A stretch of DNA of 64,000 nt from an uncultured bacterium (GTDB lineage: Bacteria > Bacillota_I > Bacilli_A > RFN20 > CAG-826). The notes below the pieces were generated by a model. That model saw only the letters and a program-made list of their open reading frames with translations. It searched no databases and had not been told where the DNA came from. Each line of letters begins with the position of its first letter. Positions within the stretch are counted from its first letter, which is position 1. Below, one piece after another: positions 58,411 through 61,460 of the stretch. The stretch lies in NCBI GenBank assembly GCA_949290395.1, contig CASERQ010000001.1:62001-126000 (forward strand). Reading direction: 5' to 3'. The translations under genes and the position numbers were made by a program.

Positions 58411-59629
58411 GCCTTAAGATTTTGCTTTCTAAACCATTTTTTACAATTATCTTATGTCTTTTGAGTTCAATTTGCTTTGGGATAATATCTTCATCAAGCG
58501 ACTTAAATCATTTTAATAAATATAAAAGTACGCAAGAATGCATGAACGTAAATCACGATAAAGTTATCGAAGTAACTGGAACATATATTGAAGAAGAAGG
58601 CAGCACATTATTTTATAGCGAGCTTGATGAAAGCGAAATTAATAATGTCGCTTCTTATTTTCTAAATGAAAAAGTCACTTACATGCCTATTTTTAATTCT
58701 TCTAATATTGATGAATTTATTTAAAATGCAAGCACAGGCGGTAATTTTAGTTTTGATTCCAATTTTTCTTTTATCAATTTAGATGTTTATACAGGATTTA
58801 ATTTTGACATTTTTGGAAGTTTCCCAGATGAAAACGAATTTTTAATTAGTCAAGATTTCTTGTTGATTTGAATGTTATTAATAAAGAAGAAAAAATAGAT
58901 GAAGAAGAGGCGAAAATTTTGATTGATCAATTAAATGTTAATCTAAAATATAGTGAAAATAATACATATGGACTTCAGGTTTCCGGAATTATTAAAAATA
59001 TAGTTTCTGAAAACACGACAATTATTCAAAATTTATATCAGTTAGATAACTTTGTTCTGTTTAATGAAAAAGTCTGTTCTACAATTATGAATGAAATAGA
59101 TTCTAAAGCGTCAGGATTAATCTTTAGTTCAAATAATGATGGCTATCTAAAGGCTATAAATTTTATAAATAACGATAAAAAATTATTGCTTGAGAATTAT
59201 GTTATATTAGAAGGAAACCAAAAAGAGATGCAAACAACCGTTCTTAGTATTTTTCTTAACTTTATTACGGTTCTTATTTTAATTTTAGAGTTTGTGATTC
59301 TATTTAATTATGTTTATACACTTAAGGCATACCACAACAAAACATTAGAGATTTTAAATAATAATGGCGCAAATTCTATATTTTATTTTTGGATTTTTCT
59401 TTCAATGATTCTTCTGGTTTTTTTAATTACTATTGGATTAGGAATAGGTGCTGGTTCGATTTTAAATGTAATATTAAATGCAATTTCAACCAACGCTTAC
59501 ATCAAAACAATTTTTCCAATTGCTTCGTTTCATCCTTTATCGATACTTTTTTCTTCAGGTGTTAGCGCAGTTATTTTTCTAATAGGTTTTGCTTTTCTCT
59601 TTTTCAGTAAAAAAGTTAAAAAAATATAA
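58411..59629 (+). pseudogene. Degraded MacB/FtsX-type ABC permease
   Basis: Reading 58411-58724 gives one transmembrane helix (SKPFFTIILCLLSSICFGII) and an outside domain, then TAA at 58722-58724. The same frame continues open (NASTGGNFSFDSNF, then DENEFLISQDF) until about 58862, where a one-base shift is needed to continue as LVDLNVINKEEKIDEEEA. That part runs to 59629 with three final hydrophobic segments ending LFFSKKVKKI. So one nonsense and one frameshift lesion separate the pieces, with a further probable frameshift joining it to the ATPase. Total length suits a four-helix MacB-type permease. Sequencing or assembly error is possible instead of real decay. Confidence 0.8.
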
Positions 59630-59689
59630 AAATATTTTTAAGAAAATTAACAATACCTTCTTTTGTATATAGTGAAAGGAGGTTTTTAA

Positions 59690-60826
59690 ATATTTAAGTG
59701 TCCATATTGTGGTAATGAAGACGAAAAATATATTGGCTATAAAAACGGCGAACCATATTGTAGGCGCTGCATCTCATTTAGAGGAGAGGAAGCTCAAGAA
59801 GATTATGAAGTTTCATCTTTTGGGCATTTAGAAATTGATTACGATTTAAGTGAAGATCAAAAGAGAGTATCTAATGAGATACTAGAAGGCTTTAAAAGTC
59901 ATAAAAACACGCTTGTTTATGCTGTTTGTGGTGCTGGAAAAACCGAACTTGTTTATCAAGTAATTGATTTTTGTCTAAAAAAGAAATTGAAAGTAGGTTT
60001 TGCAATTCCAAGGCGAGATGTTGTTATGGAACTTGCGGAGCGCTTAAAAAACGCATTTAAAGGGTATAATGTAATCTCGGTTTACGGAGGTCATAATTCT
60101 CTTTTAACTGGAGACATAATTTGTCTAACAACTCATCAGCTTTTTAGATATCAAAATTATTTTGATCTTTTAATATTAGATGAAGTAGATGCTTTTCCTT
60201 TTAAAGATGATTTTGTATTAGAAAATTTCTTTGAAAAAGCAACTAAGGGTAATCATGTTGTAATGTCGGCGACGCCATCTGAAAAATTAATTAAAAAGTA
60301 TAGTAGTGATAATAATCAAATAGTAAAACTATTTAAAAGATATCATGGGAAGAAAATTCCAGAACCGGAAATTTTTGTAAATTTAAGTTTGTTTAATTAT
60401 CTTTATCTCTTTTATAAGTTTTGCAAAATTTTAAAAAATAATAAACCTTTGCTGGTTTTTTCACCAACAATTGAGGAATGTGAGAATCTATATTTAATTT
60501 TAAAGTTATTTCCTTTCAAAGGAAATTATGTTCATTCTAAATGTAAAGATAGAGGTGAAAGAATACAAAAATTTCGTGATGGTGAATATAAGTATTTAGT
60601 GACGACAGCTGTTTTAGAAAGAGGAGTTACTTTAAAAAATCTTCAAGTCATTATATTTAACGCATCTTCGTTTATATACACAAAAGAAGCTTTGATTCAA
60701 ATATCTGGGCGCGTTGGAAGAAAAAAAGATGCTACAGATGGAGAAGTTATTTTTATCGGGACTAGAAAAAGTAAAGAAATGGTTTCAGCAAGACAAACAA
60801 TTATCGACATCAACAAAAGTGTGTAA
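59690..60826 (+). CDS. comFA: Competence helicase ComFA, apparent AUA start
   Basis: Cytosolic DEAD-box-like ATPase that helps pull transforming DNA in. The full frame is 378 residues: zinc finger CPYCG then CRRCI (residues 4-32), LSEDQKRVSNEIL, Walker A VCGAGKTE, Walker B ILDEVDAF, VMSATPS, and QISGRVGRKKD near the end. The only plausible start is ATA at 59690, 7 bases after a perfect AAGGAGG; TAA lies in frame just before it and no ATG/GTG/TTG exists between it and the zinc finger. A start at TTG 59987 would lose the zinc finger and Walker A. Either AUA initiation or a start-codon mutation. Confidence 0.82.
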   Translation: MFKCPYCGNEDEKYIGYKNGEPYCRRCISFRGEEAQEDYEVSSFGHLEIDYDLSEDQKRVSNEILEGFKSHKNTLVYAVCGAGKTELVYQVIDFCLKKKLKVGFAIPRRDVVMELAERLKNAFKGYNVISVYGGHNSLLTGDIICLTTHQLFRYQNYFDLLILDEVDAFPFKDDFVLENFFEKATKGNHVVMSATPSEKLIKKYSSDNNQIVKLFKRYHGKKIPEPEIFVNLSLFNYLYLFYKFCKILKNNKPLLVFSPTIEECENLYLILKLFPFKGNYVHSKCKDRGERIQKFRDGEYKYLVTTAVLERGVTLKNLQVIIFNASSFIYTKEALIQISGRVGRKKDATDGEVIFIGTRKSKEMVSARQTIIDINKSV

Positions 60827-61460
60827 AGTTTGTTTTAAAGAAATCAAAAATGGATGTTACCACGACTTTTTAAATAGTGGAATTATTTGTTACAACTGCT
60901 TAAACGCACTAAATCCGGAATTTATTGAATTTAAGATTGATGATGTTGATGCTTTAGCAATTTACGAATATAGCGATTTTGTTAAGGATAAAATTTATGC
61001 TTATAAAGGTTGTGGAGATTTTGAACTTAATAATATTTTTGTTGGGCCATTTATAAATGAGTTAAGAGCCCTTTATTTTAATTATGAAATTGTTCCTGTG
61101 CCATCTCATAAAAAGGGCAATCATGTAGTTTATATGTTTAGCTGTTTAGGGCTAAAAATTAACGATATATTCTATAAAAGTAATGAACATAAACAATCAG
61201 ATCATAGTTATCTTGAGCGAAAAGAAGTTGGAAATTATATTCATTTAAAGGACGAAAAAACAAGTCTTGAAGGAAAAAATATTTTACTTGTTGATGATAT
61301 TTGTACAACAGGTTCTACGTTAAAAGCGTGTTTAAAAATGCTAAAAGAATTAAGGCCAAAAAGGATTAAAATTTTAGTAGTTGCAAAAAGGGTTTTCACT
61401 GAAGAAGAAATTGAAAATATGAAGAAGTCGGAAAACTATGAAAAACTAGAAATAGTTTAG
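60819..61460 (+). CDS. comFC: Competence phosphoribosyltransferase-like protein ComFC
   Basis: 213 residues from GTG 60819, which overlaps the comFA stop (GTGTGTAA). A longer open frame upstream (to 60714) lies inside comFA and is unlikely. N-terminal cysteines CKVCFKEI and CYNCL suggest a zinc site; the C-terminal PRT motif LLVDDICTTGSTLKACLKMLKELRPKRI is typical of ComFC/GntX. It acts with ComFA in DNA uptake. secA follows; the usual hpf gene between comFC and secA is absent. Confidence 0.9.
   Translation: MCKVCFKEIKNGCYHDFLNSGIICYNCLNALNPEFIEFKIDDVDALAIYEYSDFVKDKIYAYKGCGDFELNNIFVGPFINELRALYFNYEIVPVPSHKKGNHVVYMFSCLGLKINDIFYKSNEHKQSDHSYLERKEVGNYIHLKDEKTSLEGKNILLVDDICTTGSTLKACLKMLKELRPKRIKILVVAKRVFTEEEIENMKKSENYEKLEIV

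Follow-up and report, generated by a model that had tools for sequence, protein, structure and literature searches.

A recurrent AUH start codon and a hairpin over the Shine-Dalgarno sequence may restrain comFA in a candidate competence gene set of uncultured Bacilli

How can translation of comFA begin when the first in-frame ATG, GTG or TTG of the gene stands at codon 100 or later, beyond the zinc finger and the Walker A motif? The question arises in an uncultured bacterium of the Bacilli (assembly GCA_949290395.1), of which a stretch of 64,000 nucleotides, called the window below, was analysed. The comFA frame opens with ATA directly after a TAA at 59687-59689, 7 nt from the last G of the Shine-Dalgarno sequence (SD) AAAGGAGG, and ends with the stop codon at 60824-60826 (Table 1). 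The initial annotation had read the leader in this way and had placed the finger and the Walker A motif ahead of any normal start. Both points held, as did its forecast for automated callers: an ORF caller restricted to normal starts gave comFA from TTG 59987, 3' of the Walker A motif. It left two explanations, namely rare initiation at AUA with weak or conditional translation, or an ATG mutated to ATA that disables competence.

Table 1 Features of the comFA region, in window coordinates.
Feature	Position	Strand	Basis or remark
Promoter-like element TTTTTAAGAA (possible -35 region)	59635..59644	+	18 nt 5' of TTGTAT
Hairpin 5' arm ACCTTCTTTT, complementary to SD	59655..59664	+	Fold, terminator scan, SD-stem test
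TTGTATA box (putative -10, candidate competence promoter)	59663..59669	+	Spans hairpin 5' arm and loop
Hairpin 3' arm containing SD	59674..59683	+	Fold, terminator scan
Shine-Dalgarno sequence AAAGGAGG	59675..59682	+	Read from sequence and congener comparison
comFA AUA start codon (well supported)	59690..59692	+	Sequence and congener comparison
comFA, 378 aa	59690..60826	+	Four-Cys zinc finger, Walker A GAGKT, helicase C-terminal domain
comFC	60819..61460	+	Probable GTG start overlapping comFA stop; no own SD by eye

The product of the full frame carries an N-terminal zinc finger of the form C-x2-C ... C-x2-C (C4, C7, C24 and C27), a Walker A motif in the context VCGAGKTE, and a superfamily 2 helicase core matched above cut-off by the Pfam families PF00270 (DEAD), PF04851 (ResIII) and PF00271 (Helicase_C). 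It is 35-36% identical to loci of named Bacillus genomes; no ComFA-named family was found among its Pfam or NCBIfam matches and no solved chain named ComFA among 25 structure matches. The product of the adjoining comFC matches TIGR00201 (comF) below cut-off (66.1 of 233.55 bits) and contains a Pribosyltran domain above its own cut-off. Judged from the finger, the helicase core, the adjoining comFC and the Bacillus matches, the name ComFA seems appropriate. Translation of comFC is probably coupled to that of comFA. Codons 2-99 differ from those of the closest relative at 19, 18 and 49 first, second and third positions, respectively, with 30 of the 97 aligned codons changing the residue, and the four finger cysteines are invariant among 22 aligned ComFA sequences. 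Because of this third-position bias and the invariant cysteines, the stretch ahead of TTG 59987 looks translated. Farther upstream, an ABC permease gene (58422-59629) is interrupted, with an in-frame stop near 58722 and a frame change before 58868. In two other loci, L013 and L030, the finger is preceded by an rpiB-like ORF at a distance of 63 and 124 nt, which suggests that the ABC genes were inserted 5' of comFA.

A protein search returned a ComFA match in 94 of 96 genomes, the genome of the window included, three of the 94 (G035, G040 and G046) being weak matches and probably other helicases; among genomes at least 90% complete, the match was found in 73 of 73. From 150 loci, 22 without the finger pattern and 16 duplicates were removed to leave 112, and 5' ends were read after the minus-strand loci had been reverse-oriented. 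The genus of the window is represented by 26 genomes, one of which (52% complete) gave no match, leaving 25 comFA loci. In 16 of these the start codon at SD-linked spacing is ATA (L001, L002, L004, L010, L011), ATT (L003, L005, L006, L009, L018, L022, L023, L026, L029) or ATC (L012, L017), collectively AUH, or ATH at the DNA level. The others start with ATG (six: L007, L013-L016, L019), TTG (L008, L030) or GTG (L021), from which it follows that AUH is not essential.

The reading frame itself distinguishes these codons from chance. A script called an SD in 23 congeneric comFA loci, seven of them with NTG, 16 with ATH only and none with neither. All 16 SD-bearing loci lacking NTG at spacing 4-12 have an in-frame ATH at spacing 5-10, against 4/16 and 3/16 for the other two frames of the same stretches, although the 16 congeners are related species and do not count as 16 independent trials. 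The alignment of orthologous start regions, a check proposed in the initial annotation, agrees with AUA initiation: L002, with 75% protein identity, has the identical ATA TTT AAG TGT in the same context, and most congeners have AUH. The aligned position is occupied by TTG in the congener L030, and L025, from another genus, reads ATG TTT AAG TGT with ATG at the same codon and without an SD. A stop codon stands directly 5' of ATH in L001, L002 and L023. Among the 16, possible alternative starts are an in-frame TTG upstream of the SD in L004, a GTG at the SD in L005 and a GTG just ahead of the first Cys in L029. Close pairs swap the third base (ATT in L003 and ATA in L004; ATA in L010 and ATC in L012), and a tree of 30 ComFA proteins contains seven changes between AUH and NTG, at least five of them forced by well-supported branches, with AUH kept in nine of the ten rows of the window's own clade. 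The tree changes and the swaps in close pairs indicate that AUH is recurrent and mostly retained rather than a single accident. AUH clusters only modestly on the tree, with as low a value in 22 of 500 shuffles, and selection against ATG cannot be proved from so small a number of third-base changes.

Outside the genus, AUH appears to be a tendency and not a universal trait. The 36 SD-bearing comFA loci there comprise 7 with ATH only, 16 with NTG and 13 with neither, and in another 51 the script called no SD. The ATH-only loci are L020, L044, L049, L062, L084, L086 (doubtful) and L120; NTG occurs farther upstream in L049, L062, L084 and L086, and L046 and L056 have ATG where L049 has ATA. Distant comFA loci of Erysipelotrichia type (L087, L092, L100 and L094) have an SD-like sequence, no NTG near the finger and no usable ATH; the first three share CAR TGC AGT AGR at the finger, and L104 is alike but has ATT. 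The congeneric comFA of G005 (L007/L267) is interrupted: its match contains one TGA and the ORF falls into two pieces.

The neighbourhood of comFA lends no support to the idea that the clade is lax in its start codons overall. The control sample combined the window with stretches of at most 20 kb surrounding comFA, taken from 20 congeners. It yielded 333 non-overlapping ORFs of 90 aa or more that were conserved (matched in at least four other genomes); they belong to 20 families, comFA accounting for 22 of the rows. The test flagged 16 of the 333 for want of a normal start, 11 of them comFA; another was the downstream piece of the interrupted G005 gene. The remaining flags, 4 of 311 non-comFA ORFs, each had another explanation: prfB after its frameshift, which we take to be programmed, two comFC and one other ORF with NTG a few codons inside. 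Thus, in this one neighbourhood and its 20 families, 0 of 311 non-comFA ORFs look AUH-started. The test recovers 11 of the 13 AUH comFA in the set and misses those with NTG farther upstream.

A second control was infC, an AUU/AUA/AUC-initiated gene in E. coli. Its 5' ends were read in 30 loci, 15 congeners among them. All 15 congeners have ATH and none has NTG 2-13 nt after the SD; thirteen have ATA, 8-9 nt from the SD, L162 has ATC and L176 ATT, and the infC of the window's genome reads as AUA. The clade thus appears to use AUH where it is known to matter. Taken with the comFA comparison, initiation at AUA 59690 is well supported, in keeping with the proposal of the initial annotation, and weak or conditional translation of ComFA would follow from what is known of AUH starts. 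The initial annotation had not seen that a terminator-like hairpin has the SD as its 3' arm, nor that comFA shares a box with other competence genes.

The box, TTGTATA, lies just ahead of the SD. A 22-nt pattern around it has six matches with up to three mismatches in the genome of the window, against none for the reversed control. It is exact at comFA and dprA; at two mismatches it gives one site from which no gene reads, and at three mismatches comEA, a gene for a small bacteriocin-type membrane peptide (by eye, with no Pfam match) and one site without a gene. In the 64-kb window a shortened pattern matched comFA only, with 0 mismatches, where 0.42 chance matches are expected at up to three. 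By eye, an element resembling TTTTTAAGAA stands at a similar distance 5' of three other boxes of this genome, those at comEA, at the bacteriocin-like gene and at an ABC gene, and at 57 anchored box sites only an A at -22 reaches a frequency of 0.75 (0.89) upstream of the box. A scan of 59550-59800 found no sigma-70 consensus promoter. The streptococcal cin-box, TACGAATA, is absent from the plus strand of 59400-59710, with a single one-mismatch match at 59439. Judged from its recurrence and position, the TTGTATA box may be a promoter. Four Sigma70_r2 proteins are encoded in the genome; the one of 431 aa is the primary sigma factor by eye, and the three small ones (L387, L388 and L389 of G000) are candidate readers of the box.

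In 23 genomes of the genus a shorter gapped form of the pattern is barely enriched (102 matches against 74 for the reversed control, totals added by hand). We fetched 40 box sites, 38 of our own choice from the gapped-pattern matches and two from the window's genome. Twenty-seven stand ahead of an ORF whose ATG has a spacing of 4-11, and 13 have no plausible ORF. The 27 ORFs comprise comEA (8), recA (3, with agreeing coordinates), a type found upstream of comGA (4), bacteriocin-like genes (4), C39-peptidase exporters (3, with PF03412 in the one scanned), ABC ATPases (2) and others (3). The comEA genes were named by eye, and by coordinates lie upstream of comEC matches in G003, G010 and G016. 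The comGA-upstream type lies about 2 kb 5' of a comGA-like match in G003 and G017 and has look-alikes in G021 and G014, the latter not beside comGA. The start codons of these genes form the contrast to comFA. The dprA gene of the window's genome has the same leader, CTTTTGTATTAAGTGAAAGGAG, but an ATG start, and of 15 congeneric dprA loci 14 were read (L242 was left out), 13 having ATG and one being unclear. For recA, ATG is the start as printed in 22 of 26 congeners, and in the other four an in-frame ATG follows next; the SD-to-ATG distance in two recA genes is 14 and 34 nt. Among the competence genes read, comFA thus stands out by having AUH where the others have ATG.

The hairpin over the SD is unremarkable at the window's site by folding alone: the RNA folds at -9.5 kcal/mol with this helix (z -1.16), a stability that 26 of 200 shuffles also reach. 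In the SD-stem test the site gave p 0.02, and a terminator scan returned one site, 59655-59683 (12 pairs, 3 counted G-C), against 0.1 expected, the comFA hairpin being followed by a T run that would form a U-rich tract. No Rfam family was found at 59400-59900 at E≤1. For the box sites as a set the pairing is clearer. We gathered 66 sites and tested 61, 58 of them without recA; left out were those with no box by script (comFA L006 and L010, dprA L249 and L252) and the mis-located dprA L253. A stem score of at least 14 was reached by 33 of 58 non-recA sites against 5 of 77 control genes, which come from one neighbourhood and 20 families (Fisher 7e-11, the sites being related), and by gene it was reached by comFA at 13/23, comEA at 7/8 and dprA at 6/11 sites. 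Of 16 recA sites, 10 of the 26 congeneric recA not having been located by script, two reached it against 33/58 of the non-recA sites (p 0.0017, with related sites treated as independent). By shuffling, p≤0.05 was obtained at 26/58 non-recA sites against 2/77 controls, comFA contributing 10/23 (13/23 fail) and dprA 3/11. Pairing of the SD thus exceeds that of the controls for the set of box sites. The C39 exporter sites, though not housekeeping, have a strong stem in 0 of 3 cases, which insulation against read-through does not predict.

The position of the 5' arm shifts with respect to the box (loops of 4 to 24 nt), yet its complementarity to the SD is kept. A table of hairpin pairs was built from stems chosen for their pairing and is therefore no test, and a MAFFT alignment of 13 leaders misaligns the 5' arms. 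In a best-stem test around comFA starts, 45 of 112 unique loci were equalled by at most 5 of 100 shuffles; many of the 45 belong to other genera, with the ATG itself in the loop. Read-through into comFA is possible, because in 23 of 24 congeners the 700 nt ahead of comFA have their longest ORF on the comFA strand.

From these results, a model of comFA control may be proposed. Translation would start at AUA 59690, guided by a strong SD at good spacing, as also appears to be the case for the organism's own infC, and the AUH codon would hold ComFA and the overlapping comFC low relative to the AUG-started competence proteins that have the same type of box and SD. The 5' arm, upstream of or across TTGTATA, would pair with the SD, followed by the U-rich tract, so that RNA reading in from upstream would be terminated or would have its SD hidden in the hairpin. 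RNA begun at the box would have its 5' end beside the SD and, without the 5' arm, could be translated. The resulting dose of ComFA and ComFC would be low and possibly tuned by IF3. We place the probability of this reading, a competence gene set in which a weak infC-type start limits ComFA and coupled ComFC and a hairpin acts on read-through, at roughly 0.7. Sequence and comparison establish the position of the start, the recurrence of AUH, the contrast with the sister genes, the set-wide SD pairing beyond controls and the shared box; a promoter at the box, an RNA start beside the SD, an action of the hairpin on read-through RNA, the low yield, the comFC coupling and the sensitivity to IF3 are inferred. 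A further proposal, that the level of IF3, itself set by an AUH codon, gates transformation through the comFA start, together with silencing of read-through RNA of many genes of the set by a design with the promoter lying within the hairpin, is tentative and in our judgement probably goes too far.

Several other accounts of the locus were weighed. The start may have been lost by mutation or sequencing error, leaving a gene that is dead or mis-assembled; ATA is one step from ATG, the draft genome is in 21 contigs and the upstream permease gene is itself broken. Yet the same ATA context occurs in a related genome, AUH is found in 16 of 25 congeners, the frame is open with third-position bias through the first 99 codons, and every genome at least 90% complete has a ComFA match. 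The AUH starts of the relatives and the third-position bias largely rule out sequencing error and pseudogene status, and we give this account virtually no weight. The suggestion that ATG mutated to ATA and disabled competence is not supported, given the same 16 congeners and bias, the third-base swaps and the ATG of L025. Initiation may instead use another codon, be it the TTT or AAG after ATA or an upstream start with a frameshift, the isoleucine codon being incidental. The ATH lies a slightly long 10 nt after GGAG in 4 of the 16 congeners, and a few distant Erysipelotrichia loci (L087, L092, L100) have neither NTG nor ATH near the finger. Set against this are the in-frame excess of ATH (16/16 at spacing 5-10, against 4/16 and 3/16), the stops directly before ATH in three loci and the alignment of ATH with the ATG or TTG of relatives, which make such a start improbable.

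Harder to dismiss is that AUH is real but a tolerated drift, permitted by a strong SD and a possible need for few ComFA copies, and that the hairpin is a terminator for the upstream gene, its overlap with the SD being a coincidence. The five to seven interchanges of AUH and NTG on the tree, the terminator score of the hairpin with its T run and the nine of 25 congeners that do without AUH are all consistent with this; however, box and SD are the same at dprA and comEA, for which ATG was read, and arms that pair with the SD also occur at comEA, dprA and bacteriocin-like genes. We regard drift as possible, though doubtful. The inverted repeat may also be a DNA operator or part of the promoter rather than an RNA hairpin, as TTGTATA is also found where a strong stem is absent (e.g. 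L011, L014-L017). A 5' arm that slides fits pairing with the SD and not a fixed protein site, albeit with stems picked for pairing, and we consider an operator rather unlikely.

The preferred reading, a weak AUH start within a box-sharing gene set, resembles several known systems in part. In the available part of PMC13009471, the infC of S. aureus starts with AUA, and AUU-started cvfC1 and AUA-started ccpN and citZ give about 10% of the AUG yield in poor medium, ccpN reaching up to 30% in rich medium; the title of a reference therein places E. coli pcnB among the AUU/AUA/AUC-initiated genes. Like infC-type genes, comFA has a conserved AUH as the only SD-linked start, and a strong SD. The differences are that reduced yield was measured in these S. 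aureus cases, whereas the yield and IF3 response of comFA are predicted; that comFA encodes a DNA-uptake motor and not a translation factor or repressor; and that its AUH alternates with ATG, TTG and GTG inside a genus. The Streptomyces sigR gene, whose GTC start is repressed by IF3 according to the accessible portion of PMC5472188, is similar in that, within a group of genes under common regulation, a non-canonical start may fix how much of a single product is made; it differs in its codon and in that partner stoichiometry and IF3 dependence were shown for sigR, the IF3 dependence of comFA being a prediction. For the hairpin, the closest likeness is gene e (lysozyme) of phage T4, in which, per the excerpt of PMC3014915, long transcripts hide the ribosome-binding site in a hairpin and late-promoter transcripts lack the 5' arm. 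There too the SD lies in the 3' arm with a promoter-like box just 5' of it; comFA differs by the terminator-like U tract and by a design that recurs over a bacterial competence set.

A box common to comFA, dprA, comEA and recA recalls, as far as the available text on them goes, the ComX and SigH regulons of streptococci and Lactobacillus sakei, but the box here is TTGTATA beside the SD and not the cin-box. In the part of PMC6560143 at hand, pneumococcal comFA is strongly induced from a low level and recA is high before induction; the first column of its table, which we take to be the basal level as the heading falls outside that part, gives 3 for comFA against 391 for recA. In L. sakei, sigma-H strongly induces comFA and dprA and has little effect on recA (available part of PMC3364868). 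Most recA box sites here lack the SD-pairing arm, which may be compared with the high pneumococcal recA level before induction (PMC6560143, same part). A literature search returned no paper that joins comFA, translation initiation and a non-canonical start; among the matches listed, none ties a DNA-uptake programme to start-codon discrimination and none deals with AUH starts in competence genes.

Callers that assume ATG, GTG or TTG miss or truncate AUH genes, and truncation at a normal start costs comFA its zinc finger and Walker A motif. The locus also provides a natural contrast for testing the purpose of weak starts, a single type of box and SD being combined with AUH at comFA and with AUG at the other genes read, as well as a proposed competence box and gene set for uncultured Bacilli and a simple proposed way of keeping such genes silent against read-through.

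Some minor observations concern other loci. The Pfam Competence domain had no match in G000, G001, G006, G008, G011, G012 and G014, of which G000 and G014 have a visible comEA; these seven genomes probably encode a divergent ComEC. At L284 (G000:C3:34935), TTGTATATAGTGAAGGAGG stands 5' of an ORF that resembles transposon-type OrfB/TnpB by eye. Ten comFA loci (L114, L118, L119, L122, L053, L058, L059 and L041 from other genera and the congeners L013 and L019) have ATG without the usual SD, the ATG lying in or beside the AT-rich loop of an inverted repeat with its 3' arm over the first codons, which suggests a near-leaderless comFA mRNA. Finally, the box precedes small membrane peptides with the pattern GEAITL...PGGYxFxW (L343, L347, L349 and L355) and C39-peptidase exporters (L323, L327 and L353), and this sharing suggests a co-regulated peptide export or bacteriocin system.
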